IMG/VR virus record: IMGVR_UViG_3300012178_000024 | Location: 1-22,513 of that record | Length of the DNA: 22,513 nucleotides | Origin: a virus | Direction: 5' to 3' (one strand) | In this document: positions 2,158 through 18,458 of the stretch, one piece after another | Layout of the letters: each line of letters begins with the position of its first letter | Numbering within the stretch: the stretch's first letter is position 1 | Position numbers and translations under genes: made by a program | Notes under the pieces: model-generated | Told to the model about the DNA's origin: nothing | The model's database searches: none | The model's input: the letters and a program-made list of their open reading frames with translations, nothing else

Positions 2158-5100
2158 TCGGCGTCAGAGCTCCCTTCGTTACAGATAGTTGGTTCTTCGT
2201 TTGGCGATAGATCTCAGCCGAAGACAAAGCCTTAGGCGAGTTGTTGTATTGGTTGAACGTAAGTTCCGCCGGAGACGAAATATCGCCAGCCGTTGTCGTC
2301 GCGTATCGTGCAGCTTCATTTGCCTGGTATCGAGTAGAGGCGTACTTAGCCTCAGAATATGCAACATCAACAGAAATCTGCTTACCCGACAGTGAGGAAT
2401 TAATTTGTGCAGCATCCTTATGGAAATCGGACAGATCCAATACTGGAGTAATAGTGGGATTCAGATCTGTGTCCATAGCAAGAAGATCAGACAAACCAGA
2501 TATAGACTTCTTCATCGTACTGATAGCATCTTTACCGACACCTCCTGCGGCTTTATTAACCAATGGCGCGGAATTTGTAAAACCAATGGCCAGGCCCTGA
2601 CCACCCGATGCACCAATCCTTTCAAATACCTTAGATGGAGAGCTAGATTCAAACCACCCCTTTACTGTGTCAATAGCATTGTTAGCCATGTCTCGAGCTG
2701 CTCTCGCAACTTCTCCAACCTTGCCTGCAATACCGCCTGTCAAGCCGTCAGCAATAGCGAAAGCCATATCTTTACCTGCAGACAGAAGCTCAGGCATATG
2801 CTCATCAATAGAATCAGTTATGCCCTCGATAAAGCTGACGATGGCTTCAAAACCAGCATCAACAATATCTACCATGCTATCGCTAATGCCCTCAATAAGG
2901 GCGATAATAACAGCAGCACCTGCATCAATAACATCTTGGACGTTGTCGGCAAGCTCCGTAAGAAAAGCCACAAGCAATGCTGCGGCTGCCTTAACCATCT
3001 TGGGGACGGCCTCAGTCAACTCTTTAAGAATCGCCACAATCAGGTTAGCAATCTCAGCGACAATGATAGGTACCTTCTCCACCATTGCTTCAAGGATTGC
3101 TATCATAATATCAAGAGCGGCTGTGGCAATCTTGGGAACAAACTCAACCAACAACTCAAGGAGCTTGTCCAATAGAACGGTAAACAGATCAATAATCCTG
3201 GGGACGTTCTCCTCAATTGCCCCAATAATTGCCCCAAGGACCGCAGACATTGCGTCAAGCATTGCTGGACCAGCAGCGGCAATTACTTCTGCAAATGCAA
3301 CTAGCGCATTGCCAATTTGCCTGGCGAACTCTGGAAGAAGTTTAAATAGACCTACGGCTATGGCAATAATAGCAGCAACGCCAGCGGCGCCGGCAGCAGC
3401 AAGAGCGGTGATTCCTGTAGCAAATAGAAACACCCCAGCTCCAGCAGCCAATAGTCCTATGCCAAGAATACCAACAGCTATTCCCAAAGCAAGAAGAACA
3501 GGAACAACAGCCGCGAGTGCAAGACCGGCAACTCCGAGAATAATGAAAACGCCAGCCATAACGCCGAGACCCTTAGCGATCATACCCAAAGACATACTAC
3601 CGAATGCTATCAGCACCGGTACAAGCGTAGCTAAAGCAGCTGCGACAAGAAGCGTAGCTGCAGCTCCTGGGAGAGCAGCTGTCATAGCCATCATAGCTAC
3701 CGCAATAATCACTAGAGAACCAGCAAGAGTAACAAGACCCTTAGCGATCTCTTCCCAACTCATCCCGCCCATCTGTTGCATTACGTTGGCAATTAGACCA
3801 AGAGCAACTGATACCACAACAAGAGCGGCTGCAGATGCTAGTGTTGACGGAGGCATAAGATTGAGCGCTGCTACAATAAGAATAAGCGCTCCAGCCATTG
3901 AGGATAGGCCCTTATCAATCTCTTCCCATGACAGATCGGCAATGTCACTCATAGCGCTCGCTAGAATCTTCATAGCTACGCTAACAAGAACCAGCGAGAC
4001 ACCAGCAGCCATAAGCTTAGCTGGATTGCCAACGGCCCTAGAGAATATAGCAAACGCAAAGAGAATAGCTGTGACAGAGGCTAGGCCCTTACCAACCTCT
4101 TCCCAACTAAGATCAGCAAAGTCCTTAACAGCGCTAGCAAGAATCTTAATACCGACGGCGAGAAGAACCAGAGCTGCTCCCTGCCCAATGGCACCCTTAT
4201 TAGCTTTGGAGAATTTGGTAAACAAGGTTAGTGCACCAAGAAGTGCGCCAACACCGACAAGACCCTTTGCCATCTCTTCCCAGCCAAGACCCGAAAGATC
4301 TGTTACAGCACTTACAAGCACCTTGATACCAAAAGCGAGAAGCAGAAGTCCTGCACCCGCTTTGATCATGCCAGCTGTTTGGCTAGACATGCCTCTTACA
4401 GCAAGAACAAGTGCTCCAATAAGAACAGTGACACCAGTTAGACCCTTAGCAAGTTCTTCCCAACTGAGTTCAGCCAAAGCCTTAACAGCCGAGGCTAGGA
4501 TTCTAATTGCTATTGCGAACAAGACCAGGCCAGCACCGATTGAGACGATACCTTTTGCGCCGCCGAGCATTGTGAGGCCCTTGAGCGACAAAACTAGTTG
4601 CCCCATCATTACAGACATTGCAGTGAGAGCTTTGGTAAGACCTGCTGCGTCGACCTTCGACAACATAAGTACAGAAGCAGACAAGATACCAATAGCGATC
4701 GCGAGCTGCATAAGCGTCGCTGCTCGTAGCGTATTCTGCATAGACCTAAGTGTGAAGGTCATCTTTCTGAAAGGCTCAGTAAGGTTGAATGCAATACTAC
4801 CCACAGTGTTGCTTGTGTTAGCGGCCATCCGTTGGAACATAAGGAAGATGCCGCCAAGCAGTCCAGTGTTTAGCGTGTCGAGGATTTGGTCGAAGTTTAG
4901 ACTGGTGAAGGCCTTGGTGATAGCATTAGTAATAGGTTCGAAGAAGCTCTGAAGCTTTTCAGCTAGAGGCTGAAATACATCCCAAATTCTATTTAGGGAA
5001 GCAAGTACACGATCCCAAACACTGATGAGAATCTCACCAAGACGTCCAAGAGGTTCGAATGAAGCTGTAAGATTATCTGCAGATGGTGCTTCAAAGTCGA

Positions 5101-7170: not shown

Positions 7171-8667
7171 TTATGAAGCAAAGCCAATGAACCAAAATAT
7201 GCGGCCCTCATTGGAGCTTCCTGGGGGGCGTGTGAGGGTGACACGCAAAGCGAACGACGTGCCCGAATGCGCCAACATAGTAGTGCTACCAGGAACGACC
7301 ACCTCCCATGTTGTACCACCATCAAGAGTAGCCTCATACGTTGCTGTCACGTTCGTGTCGAGTGTCTCCTCAGAAAGTAGATAAACATCAGTTGCAGTAG
7401 AAGGGAGGACAACCGTGTTGAGCACAAGAGTCCCGGTGTCTGTAGTCTCATCAACTGACGTCCACACCGTTCCGCCGTCGCCGACTGCGACGAATAGCGA
7501 CCCGGACCAGGTGACGCCGCGCATGGAATCGGTGCCTGGGGTTGTGCGGGATGTCCAGGTGATCCCGTCAGGTGACGTCAACGCCGTGCCGTCGTAGCCG
7601 ACTGCGACGAATAGTGACCCGGACCAGGTAACGGCGTACATAAAAGCATAGACTGGCGTTGTGCGGGATGTCCAGTTGATCCCGTCAGGTGACGTCCACA
7701 CGGCGCCACCACCAACTGCGACGAATAGTGACCCGGACCAGGCGACGCCGTTCATGTGATCAGTGTCTGGGGTTGTGCGGGATGTCCAGGTGATCCCATC
7801 AACTGACGTCCAGATGGCCCCACTATAGCCGACTGCGACGAATAGCGACCCGGACCAGGTGACGCCGTTCATGTTAGTAGTGCCTGGGGTAGTGCGGGAT
7901 GTCCAGTTGATCCCATCAACTGACGTCCACACCGTTCCGCCGTCGCCGACTGCGACGAATAGCGACCCGGACCAGGTGACGCCGTTCATGTTAGTAGTGC
8001 CTGGGGTAGTGCGGGATGTCCAGGTGATCCCATCAACTGACGTCCACACCGTTCCGCCGTCGCCGACTGCGACGGATAGCGACCCGGACCAGGCGACGCC
8101 GTCCATGTTAGTAGTGCCTGGGGTAGTGCGGGATGTCCAGGTGATCCCATCAACTGACGTCCACACTGTGCCGCCACCACCAACTGCGACGAATAGCGAC
8201 CCGGACCAGGTGACGCCGTTCATCTGATCAGTGTCTGGGGTTGTGCGGGATGTCCAGGCATCTATGTTCCCCGTAAATATCCCTACAGACCCGCCCAGCA
8301 GCCGAGCGCTCCGCATAACCCTCAGCCCGCCATCGACAGACACCTCGTCCTGACCAATCAGAAACCCGTCGCCCTGCCAGTTGGTGAACCCCTCAGCCGT
8401 ATTCAACACGGACGCTTCCAACTCCCACAATCGCAAATTCTGCTCGGCATCAATATAAAACGGAGCATCAAGGCCATCAACTCCAGGATCTCCTTGTGGA
8501 CCCACATAGTTGGGCAACTGACTCCATGGTCTTACACCATCGCCGACTCTCAGTAGATGAGAACCGTTTAGTTCTAGTGAGACACCAATCTCTCCGGCAG
8601 AAAGAACTTCATCATCAGCAGCCCATTCAGCTGGCGTACCACGCCTTTGTAGCATACGAGTAGCCAT
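7171..8667 (-). CDS. Receptor-binding-type virion protein: Mtd-like N-domain, collagen-like hinge and seven-blade repeat region
   Basis: A 498-residue protein. Residues 1-50 (QRRGTPAEWA...GEIGV...LRVGDG...W) match the small N-terminal domain found in the Bordetella phage Mtd protein and many phage fibre proteins. A short collagen-like hinge, GPQGDPGVDG, follows at about 56-66. Residues 138 to about 408 contain seven near-identical WTSRTTP...WSGSLFVAVG...WTS(V/P)DGI units, so a seven-bladed beta-propeller is likely. The last 90 residues form a strand-rich terminal domain. The TAA of the upstream tail-tube paralogue overlaps its ATG. The gene is much richer in GC than its neighbours, suggesting recent acquisition or recombination. 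A role in host recognition is inferred; an attached surface decoration of the tail is also possible. Confidence 0.75.
   Translation of the reverse strand: MATRMLQRRGTPAEWAADDEVLSAGEIGVSLELNGSHLLRVGDGVRPWSQLPNYVGPQGDPGVDGLDAPFYIDAEQNLRLWELEASVLNTAEGFTNWQGDGFLIGQDEVSVDGGLRVMRSARLLGGSVGIFTGNIDAWTSRTTPDTDQMNGVTWSGSLFVAVGGGGTVWTSVDGITWTSRTTPGTTNMDGVAWSGSLSVAVGDGGTVWTSVDGITWTSRTTPGTTNMNGVTWSGSLFVAVGDGGTVWTSVDGINWTSRTTPGTTNMNGVTWSGSLFVAVGYSGAIWTSVDGITWTSRTTPDTDHMNGVAWSGSLFVAVGGGAVWTSPDGINWTSRTTPVYAFMYAVTWSGSLFVAVGYDGTALTSPDGITWTSRTTPGTDSMRGVTWSGSLFVAVGDGGTVWTSVDETTDTGTLVLNTVVLPSTATDVYLLSEETLDTNVTATYEATLDGGTTWEVVVPGSTTMLAHSGTSFALRVTLTRPPGSSNEGRIFWFIGFAS
7444..8256 (-). repeat. Seven tandem 117-bp (39-residue) repeats, one unit of 114 bp
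   Basis: Units begin with the codons for WTSRTTP. On the plus strand their right edges lie at 8256, 8139, 8022, 7905, 7788, 7674 and 7557. All spacings are 117 bases except one of 114. The segments 7860-7976 and 7977-8093 differ at only two positions by hand comparison. One unit (8006-8122) contains 75 G or C bases out of 117. Frame is preserved throughout, so the array is coding and probably maintained by unequal recombination. Confidence 0.95.
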
Positions 8668-9416
8668 TATAGACCACCTCCATCAATAGTTGAAGTTTGC
8701 GGCTCGGGTACGACACCGCTGTCAATTGTAATATAATAGTCCTCGACCAGAGTTCCTGCGTCAAGTACCTCGGAATCGTATTCGTTAAATATGAATAGAA
8801 GCTCAGAGGCAGGCGGCAAACGAGAAGCTGATGCATCCGATCCATAAAGAATATCTTCTACCAGCTCTATTAGAATTGACGGAACATCTCGTGAATCAAT
8901 CACAAAGTGCGCAGTAGGCTTATAACTCGTGAATGTCGGCGGCTTTGTGACAATATCCCAGCTAAAGTTGAATGGGTCGACTGAATCACTGATAGTATTG
9001 TTAGGACGGTCCGTAGGTTCTGCCATAGCATTATACACAAGATGGATCTTATACGCATGATCTACCCCGTCGACATCGTTGCCAACCTTTGTCCTGTAAG
9101 CAAGCCCAAAAGATTTCTTTGGTTGTTGCGTTGCAAATAGGCCGTTTTTGACAAGACTAACTCCCTCACATTGAGCAAACTCTTCAGGATAGGTGTAAGC
9201 TTCAATAGTTGCTTCGAACTCTTCACTGGCAACGTGATTGAGGTACTTGATACCGTCGATATAATACGGTGTTATGTCTCCACCAGAGGGAGATTCGGAG
9301 ACAGCAACCAGACCATTCCATGGAACACCATCAATGCCCTCGATGAAAAGAACACCTTGGTCAACACCAGCTTCAAACGTTCGTTCCCCAACAGCATTCC
9401 ACATAAGTCGGGTCAT
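8667..9416 (-). CDS. Second tail-tube-like protein, paralogue of the gene at 10000-10866
   Basis: A 249-residue protein starting MTRLMWNAVGERTFEAGVD. It aligns along its length with the N-terminal 220 residues of the gene at 10000-10866. Shared landmarks are GVDx[26 protein letters not shown](Y/F)TYP(D/E)EFAQ, the YRT(K/Q)VGNDV motif, HLVY(N/G)AMA and LYG...RLP(L/P). It lacks the Ig-like C-terminal domain and ends in a short unrelated tail (STIDGGGL). The ATG at 9416 follows AAGGAGG with a four-base spacer. The chaperone gene lies between the two copies. It may be a minor or alternative tube subunit, or a specialised ring near one end of the tail. Confidence 0.85.
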   Translation of the reverse strand: MTRLMWNAVGERTFEAGVDQGVLFIEGIDGVPWNGLVAVSESPSGGDITPYYIDGIKYLNHVASEEFEATIEAYTYPEEFAQCEGVSLVKNGLFATQQPKKSFGLAYRTKVGNDVDGVDHAYKIHLVYNAMAEPTDRPNNTISDSVDPFNFSWDIVTKPPTFTSYKPTAHFVIDSRDVPSILIELVEDILYGSDASASRLPPASELLFIFNEYDSEVLDAGTLVEDYYITIDSGVVPEPQTSTIDGGGL

Positions 9417-9427
9417 GGTTCCTCCTT

Positions 9428-9970
9428 TCACCCTGTAGTGTTGAGTTTAGCTTTTCTTTCAGCGTTAAGAGCTCGTTGTCTTTCCGCTGCTTCTCGCTTA
9501 CCCATCTTATTCTTAGGAGCATTTTTAACGTTACAAACCTGAACAAGAGTCAATAGACGACTAAGATGCCAATGTTGGCACTCAAATGGGATACCTAGTG
9601 CAATCATCCAGTAGTAAATTAGTTCTGCAGTGATAATCTCACTACTTGGAGATTGCTTTGGTTTATCACTAAACCAGGTAGCAGTCATCTTAGCGTTGAT
9701 GTACTGATTAACTGCTACAAGGTTATCGTTAGAGAGCTTGCCATACACTTTTGAAGGGACGTCGGGGGTTATAATCATAGCCTTGATGTACCACAACGTT
9801 TCTTCAGAAGTCTTCTCAGTTGCGTTGAGAAACGGTTTCTCCCAAAACGACTCCCATTTTGATAGGGAAACCAGAGAGTGCTCAAGGTCCAAGACATAAA
9901 CCTCCGAAGCTACAAATTCATCCTTCGCTTCATCGAAAGCTTCTTCCATCGGGACAATTATTGTAAGCAC
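9428..9970 (-). CDS. Tail assembly chaperone-like protein, single uninterrupted frame
   Basis: A 180-residue protein in the place of the tail chaperones (after the tail tube, before the tape measure). Landmarks are [34 protein letters not shown] and [20 protein letters not shown] followed by [12 protein letters not shown]. The tail end is lysine- and arginine-rich. I recognise this as a conserved family in Gram-positive siphophages, usually unnamed or called a tail assembly chaperone. The start is GTG at 9970 because GAAGGAGG lies seven bases upstream; an ATG start is absent nearby. The classical chaperone pair is made by a -1 ribosomal frameshift. Here one frame covers everything, so no frameshift is needed. 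Confidence 0.65.
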
Positions 9971-9999: not shown

Positions 10000-10866
10000 C
10001 TACGCGATGTAGTAGAACGTCCAGTCGGTGTCCGAAATTGCCGAGAACACGTATCCCGGTTCCGGAGCAGCCGTAACAACTGTGTCCTCGGTAATTGGGT
10101 AAGGTCCTGCCGGAACCACTTCGCCGTCGATTGAGTAGACAACACCCACAACGGACGGAATAGTAATGTCGTCCGTGGTAGCATCATAGGTCGGGTTCTC
10201 AGTCGTAACTTCAGTCACCGTACCTGCGAACAAGCTCAGAATCTCGGCAGGAAGCGGAAGACGAGGATCGCCACCGGCTGTCCCATAGAGCATGTCCTCA
10301 AGAGCCGCCAAATTAGTTGCGTCGACCTTAGACGAATCGATCACCATCGATGCTGTCGGCTTGAAACCAGGCACATCGACCGGAGTCGTGCTAAGCTCCC
10401 ACGAGAACGTCAGAGCCTCAGGAGACTCATTGATAGTTCCGTAAGCCTTCTCCGTCGGAGCCGCCATGGCACCGTAGACAAGATGCAACTTGTAACCAAA
10501 GTCCGTGCCTGTGACATCGTTACCAACTTGGGTACGATATGAAAGACCGAACGTGCCACGAACCTGCTGTCCGATTAGAACACCAGCCTGAGGTTCAGCC
10601 GTGCCATCGAACTGAGCGAACTCATCTGGATAGGTAAATGCCTCAATCGTGGCGCCAAACTGCTCGGCGGACACAAGGTTGAGGTACTTAATATTGTCAG
10701 CATACTGAGGAGTTACCTCGGCACCGCTGGGAGACTCACTAACAGCCACCAAGCCGTTCCAAGCATAGCCCGCATCATATACACCAACGGTTGGAATGTA
10801 CAGAACACCATGGTCGACGCCGGTTTCATAGAACCGCTCGCCAACCTGATCCCACTTAAGACGCAT
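10000..10866 (-). CDS. Major tail tube protein with C-terminal Ig-like domain
   Basis: A 288-residue protein starting at the ATG at 10866 ([18 protein letters not shown]), preceded by AAAGGA; a longer upstream frame has no binding site. The N-terminal 220 residues are the tube domain shared with the gene at 8667-9416 and resemble major tail proteins of Gram-positive siphophages. Residues 222-288 form a separate strand-rich domain (NPTYD...ITIP...[11 protein letters not shown]...[13 protein letters not shown]...WTF) that looks like a bacterial Ig-like surface domain. A related domain ends the major capsid protein of this phage. Such C-terminal additions on tail-tube proteins usually project outward and may help weak binding to cell surfaces. 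It lies directly after the tail terminator gene. Confidence 0.85.
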
Positions 10867-10879
10867 GGGTTTTTCCTTT

Positions 10880-11185
10880 CTAAAAGAATAGGCTGAAGAC
10901 ATCATGGTTGAGGTTATTTGCTGTGAAATGCCTATTAAATATACACATAGGCAATGCGGCAATTTTATCAGGAATTTCGCTGTCGGGATCCTGACCGATA
11001 AAAGTTACCTGATATCGTTTAGTATAACGGTATGGAACGTTGCCAGCGAACCGAGTACGTGCGTTGTCACGTGTATAAACAATACACGGATACTGCATTT
11101 GCACATTGGCAGGAGGTTGAAAATATACATTGGTAGTGCCTAGAACATCCTCAAGGAGAGTTTGAAGTTCAAGCCTTCGGGCCAT
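10880..11185 (-). CDS. Tail terminator-like protein
   Basis: A 101-residue protein (from MARRLELQTLLEDVLG). The pattern LExVLG...VYFQPPANVQMQYPCIVYTRD, followed by YxxTFIGQDPDSEI, is the usual one for the small tail terminator/minor capsid proteins that cap the tail tube and join it to the head-closure ring. The ATG at 11185 is preferred because GGGAGG sits eight bases upstream; the in-frame GTG at 11194 would be inside that site. The start overlaps the end of the upstream gene by 17 bases. Its place between head-closure and tail-tube genes fits the role. Confidence 0.75.
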   Translation of the reverse strand: MARRLELQTLLEDVLGTTNVYFQPPANVQMQYPCIVYTRDNARTRFAGNVPYRYTKRYQVTFIGQDPDSEIPDKIAALPMCIFNRHFTANNLNHDVFSLFF

Positions 11186-11507: not shown

Positions 11508-13475
11508 TCAGGCCTCGTTAGTGAAGGTCCACTGGTCCTCAGCATTGGTGCCGAAGTAGTACCCAGTAGCTGCAACCGCGGTAACAATAACCGTGGCGCC
11601 GGAAGGAACTGCGTTGACAGAACCGTCAGCAACACTCACCTCATCGAGGAAGTAATCAGTAGTTGCGTCCGTCGGGATGGTCACATTACCGCTATCGTAC
11701 GTCGGAACCTCAGGCACAGTCAGAACATCAGTACCTAGGGCCGACCTGATGATCAGCGCAGACTTGATCTTGGTGAGAGCACCGGAAACCCGAGTCTCGA
11801 TCAAGTACTTGTACTGGTTGTAGTCGATGTCAAAGTCATCGAACATAGAAACCTGACCGCCCTGTTCGGCGCCCATGGCGTAGTCACGAAGGTTAACAAT
11901 GATTCCGAGCAAGTCGGTCTCATTCTCCATCACCTCAACCTCGACAATATCCGCAACCATTAGAGCCGACCTCAGCTCTTCTTTATTGTTCCACATACGA
12001 CGACCGAAGTTATCCTTCGTGAGGAGCATTTCAACCATAGTCTGGTTGGTCGTATAGAAGGTCGGCGAACCACTACCCTTGTAGAACTTGCGTGCACGCA
12101 TAATAGACTCAACAACCTCGAGGTAGCTCGAATCCGTGTCATTGATGTTCACATTGACCGTAGTAGCATACAGCTCGTGATCATTAACAACAGCACGAAT
12201 ACCAGCACCCTCAGCAGCGCCACCAGGGTCCTTGATCTTGTCCTCGTCTGAGATATCACGACCATCGCCGATGAGAACCGCACGGGCAAGCTCTTCATCG
12301 AGCATAACCCTCATTTCGCCCTTGAGCCACGAGACAACATTGAAGTCCGTGATATCAATAATATCATCACGGTCCAACTGCTGCTTCTTGTATACCGTAG
12401 TCGGCGTGGTAACTCGCTTGGTAAGTCCGAAGAACTCTTCCTTCTTCAGACTTCCCTTGACATAGCCCTTGGCACGAGCCTGATCGTGGGTAACATCTGC
12501 CGCACGAGTCTTGATTCGCGAGAACGGCGTGTGCCGGGTGCCATTAAGCACACCAGCGACCCACTCCATACGGCGAGTGACCCACTCGGGCGTTTCCCCA
12601 ACAGTCGTAGCGTCTGGGAAGAGAATATCGATGTTTTCGATACCGTGCTGAAGAGCATAGGACTCAACAGCTTCCTTCAATGACCCGTTCTTGGTTGCGT
12701 CGGCCACAATACCCTTAATGGCATCATGGGAAAGCTCGTAATGCTCAGGCGTATTGCCATCGTGCTTCTCTTCGAAGACATTACTCATTTCCTGCTTTCC
12801 TTCCTTGTGTGAGAGGTCGCCCTCTTCTTCTTTCTCGGATTGCTTCACGGACTTGTTAGCAGCCGCTTCGAGAGCGGACCCGATCATGTAGTGGACGACA
12901 TTCTTCTGCTCATCGGAGAGCGAGTCGTAAACATCCTGCACGGTCGTGTCTTCTTCGTGCTCGAACTTCTCTTCTTCCTCTTTCTCTTCTTCTTTTTCTT
13001 TGCCCAAATCATCACTGTGCTGAAAATCGAGACCAGTGTAGATAATAGCCTCATCATCAAGAATATCGGTTGAACCATCGCTGTGTGCAATGGCTACGTT
13101 ATCGATGAGGGCACCTGGGTTGGCACCAGAAAGAACCAAGCTAACCTCACGAATAACACCGTGAAAGACCTGCTTGGTTCGTTCAACCAACTGGTTCGCA
13201 TAGATGGACAGCGCAGTGATGTCCTTGTGCTGGACGAGCTGATTGGCATTCTTTGCGGATTCAGTGTCATTAAAGAAACCGTGAGCGTAAACTCCATCCT
13301 CACGATTCTCGAGCACAGCGTGCCCAAGAACGTTTGCTGGCTCATTATGCCCATGCTGCCACACCAGCGGAACTGTCATGCCATCCATGTGCTTAAATGC
13401 TTCGGGCATGATGGTTCGACCGTCGGAGCACTTGAGGCCAGCCTTCGTTGCGTAGCCGCCAAAATTAGCGTCCAT
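11508..13475 (-). CDS. Fused prohead protease-major capsid protein with C-terminal Ig-like domain
   Basis: A 655-residue protein. Residues 1-135 are an HK97-type (S78-like) maturation protease: WQHGHNEPANVLGHA around residue 40 supplies the likely His, and EVSLVLSGANPGA at 110-121 the likely Ser (S112). Residues 136-229 are an acidic linker rich in Glu and Lys, possibly acting as scaffold. From about 230 onward is an HK97-fold capsid protein (IENIDILFPDA, WVTRRMEWV...FSRIKTRAADV, LKGEMRVMLDEELARAVLIG, and TFYTTNQTMVE near the end of the fold). Residues 586-655 are an Ig-like domain. The ATG follows AAGGAAGGAGA and overlaps the portal stop by 11 bases. A second in-frame ATG at 12788 has its own binding site and would yield a 426-residue capsid protein. 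Confidence 0.9.
   Translation of the reverse strand: MDANFGGYATKAGLKCSDGRTIMPEAFKHMDGMTVPLVWQHGHNEPANVLGHAVLENREDGVYAHGFFNDTESAKNANQLVQHKDITALSIYANQLVERTKQVFHGVIREVSLVLSGANPGALIDNVAIAHSDGSTDILDDEAIIYTGLDFQHSDDLGKEKEEEKEEEEKFEHEEDTTVQDVYDSLSDEQKNVVHYMIGSALEAAANKSVKQSEKEEEGDLSHKEGKQEMSNVFEEKHDGNTPEHYELSHDAIKGIVADATKNGSLKEAVESYALQHGIENIDILFPDATTVGETPEWVTRRMEWVAGVLNGTRHTPFSRIKTRAADVTHDQARAKGYVKGSLKKEEFFGLTKRVTTPTTVYKKQQLDRDDIIDITDFNVVSWLKGEMRVMLDEELARAVLIGDGRDISDEDKIKDPGGAAEGAGIRAVVNDHELYATTVNVNINDTDSSYLEVVESIMRARKFYKGSGSPTFYTTNQTMVEMLLTKDNFGRRMWNNKEELRSALMVADIVEVEVMENETDLLGIIVNLRDYAMGAEQGGQVSMFDDFDIDYNQYKYLIETRVSGALTKIKSALIIRSALGTDVLTVPEVPTYDSGNVTIPTDATTDYFLDEVSVADGSVNAVPSGATVIVTAVAATGYYFGTNAEDQWTFTNEA
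12786..12806 (-). promoter_or_regulatory. Internal ribosome binding site and start for free capsid protein
   Basis: Inside the protease-capsid frame, AAGGAAGG (12799-12806) lies ten bases before an in-frame ATG at 12788. The resulting product begins MSNVFEEK...TPEHYELSH, which reads like an ordinary capsid-protein N-terminus just after the acidic linker. If used, the gene makes both the fusion and a larger pool of capsid subunits. Translation from here is inferred. Confidence 0.55.
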
Positions 13476-14724
13476 ATTGACTGTCTCCTTCCTTACTTAC
13501 AGGTTGTAGTTCCGACCCCGACGGAGCCGGTTTGTCACCAGGCTGAGGCATGTTGCTATTAATAAGCTTATCAGCCTTTTCGTCTGCACTCGGCTTGAAG
13601 CCGATAACTTGCCTAATTTCATTCGACGTTAGAATTTCATTTCTGGTAAATTTGTCAGCAATTTCCGCAATATCATTAACTGGAACAAGTTTGAACGGAT
13701 TGCGGAAGTACATAATAGACTGACGCTGCGATCGAGCCGTATTTGTAAGGAACGTACGCTTCATCGCATCGATAACAGCTGACACAATGGGCTCGACTGT
13801 ACGATTGTTGTAGTTCAGCATGGCCTTTTCATCAGCCGTACCATTCATAACCCCTTCCGTAAGGCCAAGTTGACCATACAACATTGCAGTCAAGTATTCA
13901 ATCTGCGCCAAGAGATTGTTCTCAGAAGGACGATTTAGTTGCGTAACTTTCTCAGTTCCATCAGTATAGGCAATGCCGTATTGGCTACCCTTAAGTTGGA
14001 ACTCAATGTCCTTTCGGCGTTGTTCCGCCTGCAGACGTCGGGCCTCCGACTTGATAACATACGGAAGTTGAATGATAAGATCGAGTTTCCCCGAGCTAGA
14101 TTGCTCATCAACCGCATCCAAAAGATTGAGCTTTCGAATTAGTCGCTGAAGAGTTGAGTTTGGCTCGTTCATTACAGAATATAGCGGGTTCTCAACAATA
14201 GCTACATACTTCTTTTCAAGCACGATCTCTTCACGTCGTCCTACAGCCTCATTATAAAGACTAATCTTAACATGCTTAGGCATCCAAGAAACAACTTCAC
14301 CAACACGCATCGTCTTGATTTCAAAACTTCCAGAAGCGCCTGGATTAACGGTTGTATCTACTGGAACAATTGCAGCAACACCCTTATCAAGAATTGTCAT
14401 AGCAATGTCTTGACGGAAAGCACGACCTGCTTGATCTATGTTAGCTTCAAGCGTCAAGCAATTATTCAGACCACTCAGAACATCTTCAGCATAGCGATCA
14501 TCTTTATCCAAACGAACATGACGAATATCAACTGCAGCGATGTCAACACTTAGACGTGTATAGATCGAGGAGATGATCGAACGCTCATTTGGAATTGAGA
14601 ATCTAATACGATCAGGACGACCGCCATAAGAAAGCGCACCAGAATATGATTGGATCCGAGATTCTGGATCCTGGTTCAAGAACGCATTCCAAGCATGCTT
14701 GATTCTATCACCAATTGTTCCCAC
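13465..14724 (-). CDS. Portal protein (HK97-like)
   Basis: A 419-residue protein between the terminase and capsid genes. Landmarks: SIIYTRLSVDIAAVDI-like N-terminal helix (here SSIYTRLSVDIAAVDIRHV), later LQLPYVIKSE-type segment (IIQLPYVIKSEARRLQ), GIAYTDGTEKVTQLNRPSENNLL near residue 275, and GLTEGVMNGTADEKAMLNY followed by the helix TVEPIVSAVIDAMKRTF. The last is the usual portal pattern before the C-terminal region (NEILTSNEIRQVIGFKPS). The portal forms the dodecameric DNA gate and the docking site for terminase and adaptor. The start is GTG at 14724, placed by a perfect AAGGAGGTGA. Pro/Ser-rich last 40 residues. Confidence 0.93.
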   Translation of the reverse strand: MGTIGDRIKHAWNAFLNQDPESRIQSYSGALSYGGRPDRIRFSIPNERSIISSIYTRLSVDIAAVDIRHVRLDKDDRYAEDVLSGLNNCLTLEANIDQAGRAFRQDIAMTILDKGVAAIVPVDTTVNPGASGSFEIKTMRVGEVVSWMPKHVKISLYNEAVGRREEIVLEKKYVAIVENPLYSVMNEPNSTLQRLIRKLNLLDAVDEQSSSGKLDLIIQLPYVIKSEARRLQAEQRRKDIEFQLKGSQYGIAYTDGTEKVTQLNRPSENNLLAQIEYLTAMLYGQLGLTEGVMNGTADEKAMLNYNNRTVEPIVSAVIDAMKRTFLTNTARSQRQSIMYFRNPFKLVPVNDIAEIADKFTRNEILTSNEIRQVIGFKPSADEKADKLINSNMPQPGDKPAPSGSELQPVSKEGDSQYGR

Positions 14725-14760: not shown

Positions 14761-15396
14761 TCACTTCTTCTCTTTAGCAGCCTTGTTGATTACTTTGGCG
14801 GATTCTTTCATCACATCCTTGTAGGTCTTTCCTTTCATGAACTCTGCTTCCAAAGTATTAGACCTACGGTTAGCAATTCGATCTGAATTTGCTTTAGCAG
14901 CACCCACAGCGCCAATGGTTGCCACGCCACCACTAAGAGGATTTCCTGTAGCCAAAGTAGTCAAAATCGCTATTGCGCCAATCTCTCCTGCCGTCATTTG
15001 AGCTGCAATTGCGCGGTGATGACTGGTGTCAAAGTCTGACTCAGCTTTATCAAATGCTTTTTTTGCTTTTGCTTTTTCAACAGATGTTTTAGCAGAATCA
15101 AGGCGATCCTCTGCATCCATCAATTTTTGATTAGATTTTCTAACTTGTTCTCGGGCATTCTTAACATCTTTATTAGACCCCATATAATTCCATGTGGATT
15201 TCTTGCCAACACCTCTATTTGGGGTTCCGCCAACATTTCGAACTGCTGCACGAGCAGATCTCGAGTTGTTAGGACGACCCGAAGCTTTATCTAGAGCCGC
15301 TTGGTCCCTACGAACACCCCACTTCATGCCCATTACGCCATAGTGCTCGAGAGCCTCTTCAAGAGAGGGCTTTTTGTCATCATTCGTAATCCTCAT
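14761..15396 (-). CDS. HYGVMGMKWGVRR-motif protein, coiled coil plus hydrophobic segment
   Basis: A 211-residue basic protein whose ATG overlaps the large-terminase TGA (ATGA). Residues 13-30 carry LEEALEHYGVMGMKWGVRR, a short motif common at the N-termini of phage head-region proteins and also present twice in the gene at 17157-18074. Residues 76-125 are Lys/Asp/Glu/Ala-rich and likely coiled coil. Residues 136-168 (GEIGAIAILTTLATGNPLSG onward) are hydrophobic and Gly/Ala-rich, then a basic C-terminus. It sits between terminase and portal, so a role in head assembly or a product ejected with DNA is plausible. The hydrophobic part could also suit membrane association. Function unknown. Confidence 0.75.
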   Translation of the reverse strand: MRITNDDKKPSLEEALEHYGVMGMKWGVRRDQAALDKASGRPNNSRSARAAVRNVGGTPNRGVGKKSTWNYMGSNKDVKNAREQVRKSNQKLMDAEDRLDSAKTSVEKAKAKKAFDKAESDFDTSHHRAIAAQMTAGEIGAIAILTTLATGNPLSGGVATIGAVGAAKANSDRIANRRSNTLEAEFMKGKTYKDVMKESAKVINKAAKEKK

Positions 15397-17141
15397 TCAA
15401 ACGCCTCCTTGTTAAGCTTGTATGCAATATAGGCATCCATCATCGCTGCTACATTGTCGATCTTTTCGTCTTGACGTTTCTTTAGAAGCTTCCGGTTACC
15501 ATTTGTATCTTCGATAGTGATTGCGTTACCCATAGCAAATGACATAAGCTCTTGATCAAAGATCAACAAGCGCTCCTCACTGAGATTTTTAAGTTCACCA
15601 AGTGGAACTGATTCAGTCTTTGCACCTTGAATTACCTTCTCAATACCAAACGGACCGTTCTCTGCTTCCCAACGAGTCACGAATTCTTTGGCATTGTATG
15701 GGTCAAACCCAAGCGCTCGAACATCATACTCTTCAGCTAAAACAAACTCATCAAGATCTTCGTAGACTTCCATCATGTCTAGGACAGTTCCCTCGAGAAC
15801 GTGTAGACTGCCCTCGTTGATGAACTGATCATACTTGAATCGCATAGCACCAGGAAGTTTCATAAGTGTTAGTGATGTAATATAACTTCTAGTCTTGATG
15901 CCGAACTTACCATTACGAAGAGGAAAGAGAAAAGTAAACGCACAGAAATCATCGCCTTGTGAAAGGTCAGCGCCAAGAGCACAAGGAAGTTGCCAGAACT
16001 TCTGAGGCCGCCGATGGGGTAGAGTTTCTTCATAAGTAAAGAAGTAGGTATAACCCTCCATCGGAATTCCAAAACGTTTAGCCAAAATATCGTTCCTAGA
16101 AGCTGGCGCTTTCTCAGCTCTTTCAACATCGAGATGATATGTCTCGTATGTGACAGTTGCTCCAAGATTCGGGTTTGCTTTCAACCAAGTTGAAGGATCG
16201 CTAACTTCATCCAACTCATCTAGCTTATAGTGCCAAATCGAGATGTGAGGAGCAACATAATCACCTTTAAGGATGTCAGCTAGTTCCATTTTGATTGTGT
16301 CACCCGAACCGTTTCGAACTGTTCCTTCAGAGCTGATAGCAACGATCAGATAGTCTTCAAGTTTTGATGCACCTTGTTCAACAGCACCGACAATGTCTTC
16401 TCGAATGTCGCCCGACAACCATTCGTCGATTGTTGAGACCTTAGGGCGAAGACCCTGCAATTTGTTGATAGTCATAGGGCGAATCTCGAGGATAGACCCA
16501 GTAAGGAAGTTCTCGACGCCCTTCTTAGTAGACGCCAACTTGACACGATTAGCTCTTGAGCCAGTAGTGTTCTGCAGTGATCCTTCAGTAAGGAATTTAA
16601 ACAGAGGACCCCGTGATCTAGTTATAGCTGTGCGTAACGGCGACATGATCTCTTCGGCCTGTTTCATTGTTGGAGCAGTAGTGATCTGATGTGTGGTTGA
16701 AGTATCAACATTTAGGAAGTACGCTTGAATACACTCACCATACATAGACTTAGCTGCCCCACGGGCAACGATAAGGTATTGCTTTGTTATCAGCCGTTTC
16801 TTTATGGTCTTTTGAACATAACGTCCGCCATGATTACCCGTTGAAGGCTCGTATACACTTCGCTCAACATAGTAATACCAACCAAAGATCTGTTCAGACC
16901 ATAACTTGAATGTAGGCAATAGGTGAAGATCATTACCATCGGTCAGTGTGAGCTCGTTCTCACAGAAAAGAATGAAACCGTCAACCGCTTTGTCATCGTA
17001 ATAAATATGTGGGTTGTCGATTAGTTCATCAATGCGATTCATCTCCATCGCAATTTCCCGGTTTACAGGAACATCGCCCCGAAGAACCGCTTCACGAAAC
17101 TGACCGTAATAGAACGGCACTGCTCTGTTTGACAACGCCAT
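15393..17141 (-). CDS. terL: Terminase large subunit (packaging ATPase and nuclease)
   Basis: A 582-residue terminase. It drives DNA into the prohead and cuts the concatemer. The ATPase has a Walker A variant ARGAAKSMYGE at about residues 126-136 and an acidic STIDEWLSGD (about 236-245) in the Walker B/catalytic Asp-Glu region. The nuclease begins with GADLSQGDDF at about 390-399, giving the first acidic metal ligand, and a later LGFDPYNAKEF supplies another. The ATG at 17141 is preferred because AAAGGAGGG lies six bases before it; an in-frame TTG at 17147 lies inside that spacer. Genes with the HYGxxGMKWGVRR motif lie on both sides. Confidence 0.95.
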   Translation of the reverse strand: MALSNRAVPFYYGQFREAVLRGDVPVNREIAMEMNRIDELIDNPHIYYDDKAVDGFILFCENELTLTDGNDLHLLPTFKLWSEQIFGWYYYVERSVYEPSTGNHGGRYVQKTIKKRLITKQYLIVARGAAKSMYGECIQAYFLNVDTSTTHQITTAPTMKQAEEIMSPLRTAITRSRGPLFKFLTEGSLQNTTGSRANRVKLASTKKGVENFLTGSILEIRPMTINKLQGLRPKVSTIDEWLSGDIREDIVGAVEQGASKLEDYLIVAISSEGTVRNGSGDTIKMELADILKGDYVAPHISIWHYKLDELDEVSDPSTWLKANPNLGATVTYETYHLDVERAEKAPASRNDILAKRFGIPMEGYTYFFTYEETLPHRRPQKFWQLPCALGADLSQGDDFCAFTFLFPLRNGKFGIKTRSYITSLTLMKLPGAMRFKYDQFINEGSLHVLEGTVLDMMEVYEDLDEFVLAEEYDVRALGFDPYNAKEFVTRWEAENGPFGIEKVIQGAKTESVPLGELKNLSEERLLIFDQELMSFAMGNAITIEDTNGNRKLLKKRQDEKIDNVAAMMDAYIAYKLNKEAFE

Positions 17142-17156
17142 CGACAACCCTCCTTT

Positions 17157-18074
17157 CTACTTCTTCAAATTCTTTTTAAGTTCTTTCATCATTGGACTAT
17201 TAGAAAGGTTATAAACCTCTTGAGCTGTCTTACCCAAACCAAGAAGTTTATTGGCCTTCTCCTGACCCTTAGCCATCTTCGAACTATTATCTCCGGTAGA
17301 CAATCTAGAATATTGCTGCTCCAAGTTCATACGCGTGGTAAGATCTTTAAGCTCCTGATTAGACAATGCCTTCGCGCCACCGCTCTTTGCCTTCTTACGC
17401 GCTGCTTCCGCTTTTTCAGAATCCTCGGAGCGATCTTGGCTTGAGCTCTTCTTAGTCTTGCGCGCGCGAGCGATCTGTTTATCACTTCTTCGGACACCCC
17501 ACTTCATACCAAGAATGCCATAGTGAGCAAGAATATCGTCAAGATCCTCGTGTTGAAGAGTTTTTACACCCTTGATCTTCTTGACCTTACCATTAGGCCA
17601 CCATTCAAGATCTATAACAATTACATCATCAGCATGTTTTGCCTTATCGACATCCACGATAGTGAGTTGCGGCATCATTCCTTCTTCGTACGATGTACTG
17701 AACACTGCCTTCTTAGTACCAGACTCGTTTGGGGCAATTTCTGCTGACACATCCTTTAGAATCTTGTTATACGTGGACTCCACGTCCTTAAGGTACTTCT
17801 TTCCAATCGGTGTTTTGAAATCCATAAGATCTTCGCCAACATCATTATACTCATACTTATCGTTGATTCGCTGGAGTTCGCCATTAGGACCATTAAGTTT
17901 ATCAGCCATCTTGTTATTTACATCTACAAATGTTTTAGTAGAACTTGCTTTCTTCTCCCAACGCTTATCGGCGCGAGCGATCTGTTTATCACTTCTTCGG
18001 ACACCCCACTTCATACCCATGATACCATAGTGAGCAAGTACATCATCGAGTGTTTCGTGTGTTTGCAGATCCAT
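17157..18074 (-). CDS. Protein with two HYGxxGMKWGVRR motifs (internal duplication)
   Basis: A 305-residue, Lys-rich protein starting after AAGGAGGAAGT. Residues 9-35 and 178-204 are the same 27-residue segment with only two substitutions (DDVLAHYGIMGMKWGVRR and DDILAHYGILGMKWGVRR, both then SDKQIARA). They are separated by exactly 169 residues. The region between (about 45-170) has a mixed alpha/beta look (VFSTSYEEGM...TIVDVDKAKHADDVIVIDLE). The region after the second copy is helical and charged. The layout suggests two formerly separate genes, each starting with this motif, fused end to end, or a duplicated N-terminus. The motif is widespread in phage head-region proteins of unknown function. 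No enzyme residues can be named. Confidence 0.8.
   Translation of the reverse strand: MDLQTHETLDDVLAHYGIMGMKWGVRRSDKQIARADKRWEKKASSTKTFVDVNNKMADKLNGPNGELQRINDKYEYNDVGEDLMDFKTPIGKKYLKDVESTYNKILKDVSAEIAPNESGTKKAVFSTSYEEGMMPQLTIVDVDKAKHADDVIVIDLEWWPNGKVKKIKGVKTLQHEDLDDILAHYGILGMKWGVRRSDKQIARARKTKKSSSQDRSEDSEKAEAARKKAKSGGAKALSNQELKDLTTRMNLEQQYSRLSTGDNSSKMAKGQEKANKLLGLGKTAQEVYNLSNSPMMKELKKNLKK
17464..18017 (-). repeat. Pair of exact 47-base direct repeats (17464-17510 and 17971-18017)
   Basis: The two DNA copies encoding GMKWGVRRSDKQIARA are identical over 47 bases and 507 bases apart, a whole number of codons. Flanking bases continue to match with few changes. Identity at silent positions points to recent copying or to gene conversion between the two. 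Confidence 0.9.
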
Positions 18075-18086
18075 ACTTCCTCCTTC

Positions 18087-18458
18087 CTACGGCTCAACTA
18101 CTACGGATGGGTCGACCCAATCATCTGTCTCTCGTACAACATTTAGACGCCACTCAAGCTCCTCAGCTTGATTCCTGAGCGAGTCGATGAGGTATGACGT
18201 TCCTGGCGGATCGAAAAGAATTCGTACTTTCAAATATACATATGTCTTGACAGAATTTAGTCGAGGATCTGTGCCAAGGAAAGTAGTCCACGTAGGTGTA
18301 GCATCCTCAATAAAGAATCCGTCAACAGGACCAATGCCCAACTGGTGAAGCGTAGAGAAAACAGAGTTGATGTGCATTAGAATATCGACATCAAATGCTG
18401 TGTAAAGTTCCTCAATTCCTAGAACCTTCTTTGTACTTGTAAGAATGCTATCGCTCAT
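18087..18458 (-). CDS. Head-tail adaptor/connector-like protein
   Basis: A 123-residue mostly helical protein (MSDSILTSTKKVLGIEELYT...FDVDILMHINSVFSTLHQLG...SVKTYVYLKVRILFDPPGT). It resembles the small head-tail connector proteins of the gp6-like/SPP1 gp15 group that dock under the portal. The start is fixed by AAAGGAGGTGAC before the ATG. Such genes usually lie just after the capsid gene; here it lies between the endolysin and the terminase block, upstream of the portal. The last residues (DDWVDPSVVVEP) look flexible. Identification is by pattern recognition and is good but not certain. Confidence 0.7.
   Translation of the reverse strand: MSDSILTSTKKVLGIEELYTAFDVDILMHINSVFSTLHQLGIGPVDGFFIEDATPTWTTFLGTDPRLNSVKTYVYLKVRILFDPPGTSYLIDSLRNQAEELEWRLNVVRETDDWVDPSVVVEP

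Follow-up and report, generated by a model that had tools for sequence, protein, structure and literature searches.

A short N-terminal motif (DUF7211) on otherwise unrelated proteins around the terminase gene of a siphophage head lineage, a putative head-targeting tag

The 22.5-kb virus fragment analyzed here (IMG/VR record IMGVR_UViG_3300012178_000024, positions 1 to 22,513; this whole stretch of 22,513 nucleotides is called the window) carries on its minus strand a head gene block in which three copies of a short motif, HYGxxGMKWGVRR, lie around the gene of the large terminase subunit (TerL). In order, the genes encode an HNH endonuclease, a lysin, a head-tail connector, a protein of 305 amino acids (aa) with two copies of the motif, TerL, a protein of 211 aa with the third copy, the portal protein, and a fusion of prohead protease, delta domain and major capsid protein; HNH endonuclease and lysin were assigned from their position and by comparison with related phages. 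The motif, termed the tag in the following, belongs to the 25-aa Pfam family PF23847 (DUF7211), whose entry gives the function as unknown and does not describe it as a tag carried by unrelated proteins. The features are as follows:

18087-18458, minus strand: head-tail connector (PF24829)
17157-18074, minus strand: 305-aa tagged core gene, composed of tag 1, alpha/beta cargo, tag 2 and helical tail
17988-18056, minus strand: DUF7211 tag 1, N-terminal in the 305-aa gene (PF23847, 51.5 bits)
17971-18017, minus strand: exact 47-bp repeat, copy B
17550-17984, minus strand: alpha/beta-like cargo region, about residues 31-175 of the 305-aa protein
17481-17549, minus strand: DUF7211 tag 2, in front of the core module of the 305-aa gene (PF23847, 50.1 bits)
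17464-17510, minus strand: exact 47-bp repeat, copy A
17157-17378, minus strand: conserved helical tail of the core protein (LSNxELxxxxxRMxLExQY)
15393-17147, minus strand: large terminase TerL (PF20441, phrog_9)
14761-15396, minus strand: second tagged gene, 211 aa, composed of tag 3, coiled coil and hydrophobic MTxGE segment
15301-15366, minus strand: DUF7211 tag 3, N-terminal in the 211-aa gene (PF23847, 49.9 bits)
13465-14724, minus strand: portal protein (PF04860)
11508-13475, minus strand: prohead protease/delta domain/major capsid fusion (PF04586, PF05065, phrog_3270)

The initial annotation of this DNA had reported two copies of the motif in the gene before terL and one in the gene after it, and they were found exactly there, namely at 18004-18032 and 17497-17525 in the 305-aa open reading frame (ORF) and at 15317-15345 in the 211-aa ORF, all on the minus strand. 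Their scores of 49.9–51.5 bits compare with a curated cut-off of 27, and the motif appeared in none of 100 dinucleotide-preserving shuffles (chance expectation zero). DNA comparison also confirmed the reported exact 47-base repeat, whose copies are spaced 507 bases apart and lie within a longer block of 90 bp with 87% identity; the third copy is about 75% identical. We take the repeat to have arisen recently, by duplication of one of the two tags in the 305-aa gene or by exchange between them. As described at the outset, each tag is joined to a different body: an alpha/beta-like region, a charged helical tail, and a coiled coil with a hydrophobic segment, though the structure models are of low confidence. 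A promoter scan of this region gave a result no better than that of shuffled sequences.

A tblastn search with the motif against 50,697 phage records (E ≤ 10) detected the tag in 244 of them, at 931 places, and 13 phage records searched with PF23847 held 2 to 7 copies each. The survey set, assembled from DNA-pattern scans of IMG/VR and from fetched phages, comprised 702 ORFs with a total of 751 tags from 261 non-redundant loci, and nothing of comparable strength came from reversed decoys. Surveyed tags revealed the consensus L-x-H-(Y/H)-G-(I/V)-x-G-(M/Q)-K-W-G-x-R-(R/K). The PF23847 profile accepts the HHGIKGQKWG form too, which was seen with Firmicutes-style test peptides, two of three composed by ourselves, and shows acceptance only. 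The histidine of HYG lay at most 20 residues from the chosen start in 572 of 646 complete tagged ORFs (88%), and was residue 9 to 17 in 30 of 38 annotated tagged coding sequences (CDSs). After removal of the tag and a short extension, clustering at 50% coverage separated the bodies into 333 clusters, 289 of them singletons, and in an alignment of 148 representatives the conserved columns were those of the tag only. Since conservation is confined to the tag while the bodies are diverse, the motif does not belong to a single fold occurring complete in every case. This, together with the start-proximal position, strongly supports the portable N-terminal tag proposed in the initial annotation, which on sequence grounds is common to hundreds of otherwise unrelated, mostly basic proteins. 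Literature searches for the motif and for DUF7211 and a PDB sequence search returned nothing relevant.

The repeat might instead be a recombination hot spot, or an RNA or DNA signal that happens to be translated, with which the exact 47-bp repeat and a synonymous codon identity of 0.54 between tags of the same genome, against 0.42 expected, are both consistent. However, codons at the invariant residues vary synonymously over 597 tags (His as CAC 0.52 and CAT 0.48, Gly written in four ways), so that selection acts on the protein, and the position of the tag close to the start is constant. On synonymous codon use the tag was rejected as a DNA or RNA signal, and we regard such an origin as hardly credible. 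At variable positions, similarity among tags is also higher within one genome (0.54) than among near relatives (0.39–0.42); since the silent sites show that this likeness stems partly from duplication or exchange, it is no proof of a common receptor.

The helical tail behind the second tag of the 305-aa gene leads to a second regularity. In 130 loci it was found on exactly one ORF per locus, 128 of these 130 ORFs were tagged, and in 97 of 124 placeable cases the ORF lay between connector and TerL. This core protein consists of tag and tail alone in most loci, and has an extra domain in front elsewhere: 2H-tag-tail in Kardashian gp6 and L157 and, judged by HxT motifs, also in L133, L148, L064, and L061; tag-GNAT-tag-tail in Bilo gp6, L117, and L120; 2H-tag-alpha/beta-tag-tail in L123; and tag-alpha/beta-tag-tail in the window, L049, L090, and Cheesy gp7. 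The GNAT cargo is free with one tag in CastorTray gp11 and fused to the core in Bilo gp6 and L120, and the alpha/beta region of the window likewise occurs free with one tag elsewhere (L136:4731-5249, L169:2125-2607). Since the same cargo occurs free or fused, the best reading of the 305-aa gene of the window, from its sequence, is a fusion in which a tagged cargo precedes the tagged single-copy core, and not one type of protein that is tagged twice.

Several observations concern individual tagged genes. The deposited starts of CastorTray gp7 (L006:3026-3553; start 3077) and Giantsbane gp6 (L013 near 3020-3517; start 3059) fall within the tag. If CastorTray gp7 started instead at the ATG at 3026, which lies upstream and follows AGGAGGTG, it would include the tag, which is absent from the annotation because the deposited start lies inside it. 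The core proteins of L164 (1639-3057) and L037 (3-785) possess an N-terminal region around 'QCKLPVRTPxGA...GVHAAAAALAGARGGV', which in L164 matched no Pfam family and which presumably resembles segments of prohead proteases. Upstream of gene 1 of GirlPower, a tagged open frame (L009:43-967) is without an annotated gene.

With respect to their context, all 652 placeable tagged ORFs share the strand of the head genes and mostly lie beside terL, 457 of them being situated between connector and portal, and 37 of 39 motif-bearing stretches of bacterial genome contigs also hold genes of this head module. Contigs with the module that were binned as Bacteroidales, Bacteroidota, Kiritimatiellae, Burkholderiaceae, and Thermoplasmata (L290, L298, L303, L306, and L311) are either misbinned phage contigs or signs of a wider host range. 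Among the 50,697 phage records, the tag was counted in 244, the capsid/protease fusion in 245 (including one weak partial match), and the connector in 243. The three also agreed by genus (Arthrobacter 95, Gordonia 55, Streptomyces 53–54, Lactococcus 13), the comparison being one of counts per genus and not record by record. Relatives of the portal protein (266 records, including 21 Streptococcus records) and of TerL (1,697 records) extend to phages without the tag. These counts bear on docking, one of the three roles guessed in the initial annotation. In a motor-docking model, the tag would bind terminase or portal and the proteins would act on packaging or on DNA ends in the producing cell. 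Tagged genes do lie on both sides of terL, and in a mirror-tree style test the partial correlations with tag distance were largest for portal (0.14) and TerL (0.12), although still weak. Since TerL and portal relatives also occur in tagless phages, while the counts of capsid fusion and connector match that of the tag, docking on the motor seems improbable.

Scanning of 260 tagged proteins against Pfam revealed GNAT acetyltransferases, 2H phosphoesterases (2'-5' RNA ligase superfamily), a Gln_amidase papain-fold toxin, DUF6883, and barstar; two Phage_connect_2 matches (L006:2679-3077, L009:2798-3172) are connector genes included by their annotated coordinates and were not counted as cargo. The two HxT/S motifs characteristic of 2H enzymes are present in the 2H cargo: Kardashian gp6, Eddiemania gp15, and L157 combine a PF13563 match with two HxT motifs (HLTL, HMTL or HITL), and the same two motifs were seen in L133 and L148. 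As T4 Acb1, an enzyme directed against the cyclic oligonucleotide-based antiphage signaling system (CBASS), has a 2H phosphoesterase fold (PMC9117128), the 2H cargo may, by analogy, have an Acb1-like anti-CBASS role. In the survey, 96% of tagged bodies but 3% of head/tail ORFs carried a net positive charge, the corresponding values for annotated CDSs being 89% and 16.5%; such a charge would be expected of proteins enclosed together with DNA. A hydrophobic stretch of 19 residues was present in about 21% of the bodies and 3% of the head/tail ORFs. The 211-aa protein of the window belongs to a small recurring family with coiled coil and hydrophobic MTxGE segment, which was defined by direct phmmer hits and motif count, a jackhmmer search having drifted onto the tag and been discarded.

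Factors of assembly only would be another way to account for this gene set: a tagged scaffold or core protein, or helpers, would bind the growing prohead or portal via the tag and then be removed or stay outside, so that nothing is injected. The core with its helical tail, single-copy wherever it was detected, the location of nearly all tagged ORFs within the head block, and a delta-domain (scaffold) motif in one tagged core protein (L201, the only significant case among the non-capsid survey ORFs) would fit such factors. Yet several fast-changing accessory genes per genome, their enzyme- and toxin-like domains, and the 333 body clusters fit passengers better, and we consider a pure assembly role unlikely.

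Apart from the tagged genes, an untagged basic gene of 160–244 aa is located between portal and capsid fusion in several loci (L004:7953-8435, L005:15695-16303, L010:7441-8052, L011:14783-15391, L013:9644-10378, L015:13814-14362) and is absent in the window; it possibly encodes another internal protein. Elsewhere in the window, a tandem array at 7449-8258 (117-bp unit, 6.9 copies) codes for 39-residue repeats such as VWTSVDGITWTSRTTPGTTNMNGVTWSGSLFVAVGDGG, the product being possibly a beta-propeller-like tail protein. Two related tail-protein genes (8667-9431 and 10000-10962) lie on either side of a third gene, and in related phages two genes for a 'major tail protein' likewise flank a third one.

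Based on the precedents of a short N-terminal signal in T-even phages and in P1 DarB, we propose that DUF7211 serves one head lineage of siphophages as a portable tag for targeting to the head and that the tagged proteins enter the next host with the DNA, a reading to which we assign a probability of roughly 0.7. During prohead assembly the tag would bind one shared partner, namely the delta domain/capsid shell, the portal, or the core protein; the tagged proteins would become enclosed in the head, lying among the DNA in keeping with their basic bodies, and the prohead protease may remove the tag. After entry into the next host with the DNA, enzyme domains would act early, e.g., 2H phosphoesterases on immune nucleotide signals and GNATs on host proteins. 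The core protein would probably anchor this system structurally, with the remaining tagged genes as passengers that can be interchanged. For the window, this would make the 305-aa protein a core with an alpha/beta passenger and the 211-aa protein a coiled-coil/hydrophobic passenger.

Among the three initial guesses, prohead targeting fits best with the basic bodies, the enzyme cargo, the synteny of the head block, and the co-occurrence with the capsid/protease fusion, and the delta-domain motif of the tagged core protein L201 also speaks for it; packaging, injection, binding partner, cleavage, and counter-defence role are inferred. The third guess, a processing signal, takes the motif mainly as a target of the prohead protease, with cutting there activating or releasing the bodies. 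The tagged phages do encode a fusion of capsid and S78-type protease, and the capsid-targeting sequences of T4 are likewise cut. In the 148-representative alignment, however, nothing conserved follows the tag that could indicate a shared cleavage site, and processing as the main purpose is very improbable, while processing and targeting are compatible and not exclusive. The alternatives (ALTERNATIVES) comprise factors of assembly only, docking on the motor, and a signal for processing alone, with a DNA/RNA signal disfavoured.

The label 'structural protein' of the tagged orf7 of Lactococcus phage 1706 agrees with head targeting, although it is annotation only; ReqiPoco6 gp20 is labelled 'virion structural protein' by similarity. 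Several points weigh against head targeting. To our knowledge, internal proteins in large amounts are not a known feature of siphophages. Most tagged bodies match no Pfam family and mostly correspond to no known enzyme, and 2H-bearing core proteins are nearly neutral in charge, not basic. The mirror-tree style test of co-evolution singled out no partner of the tag, and the co-occurrence of tag and capsid fusion may come from inheritance as one syntenic block. AlphaFold models of the 305-aa and 211-aa proteins were of low confidence with a poorly defined tag, and Foldseek with these models revealed no significant match.

In a bolder form, DUF7211 would be the universal loading tag of a siphophage protein-delivery system, tied to one head lineage in phages of Actinobacteria and Firmicutes, with the core protein as anchor and interchangeable effector sets (2H signal-degrading, GNATs, toxin-like), the tag being unrelated to the T4 signal; we rate this only slightly above an even chance. 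Phage proteins injected with the DNA act ahead of any phage gene expression, and we know of few such proteins outside model phages such as T4, P1, N4, and podophages. If head targeting holds, the search for effectors would become a database query, with the tag predicting proteins that act early for no fewer than 244 sequenced phage records, of genera including Arthrobacter, Gordonia, Streptomyces, Lactococcus, and Faecalibacterium, and hundreds of unannotated counter-defence and takeover proteins could be read from it. Such targeting would also account for the rapid change seen in the terL neighbourhood of these phages, and it would open a way, amenable to testing, to bring reporter proteins into Gram-positive bacteria.

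Among known systems, encapsulins load an HK97-fold shell via a short peptide shared by diverse enzymes; their peptides are, however, C-terminal, and they form cellular compartments with no DNA packaging or injection. MuF-effector/polyvalent proteins join a head-associated module to 2H and toxin-like domains, with GNATs also listed, and are predicted to be injected (Iyer et al. 2017, PMC5512222). The 2H and toxin-like bodies are alike, but the carrier here is a 25-residue tag instead, and the MuF domain was not among the Pfam matches listed for the 260 tagged proteins. The internal proteins of T-even phages are a diverse set united by a short N-terminal capsid targeting sequence, some of them countering host defences (PMC3012670). 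This sequence (IPI–III, Alt) resembles the DUF7211 tag as a short N-terminal segment common to otherwise unrelated proteins, yet no relation between the two in sequence was detected, and no T4-like genus was named among the 244 tag records at E ≤ 10. The phages of the tag are siphophages of a different lineage, with a capsid/protease fusion and Gram-positive hosts; moreover, their tag is also carried by a single-copy core protein, and packaging is predicted from sequence. For P1 DarB, the first 30 residues suffice to bring a reporter into the capsid, and P1 may use an N-terminal scaffold domain of its major capsid protein (PMC9024508). While the P1 signal is known on one giant protein, DUF7211 occurs on 2 to 7 or more proteins per genome in hundreds of phages.

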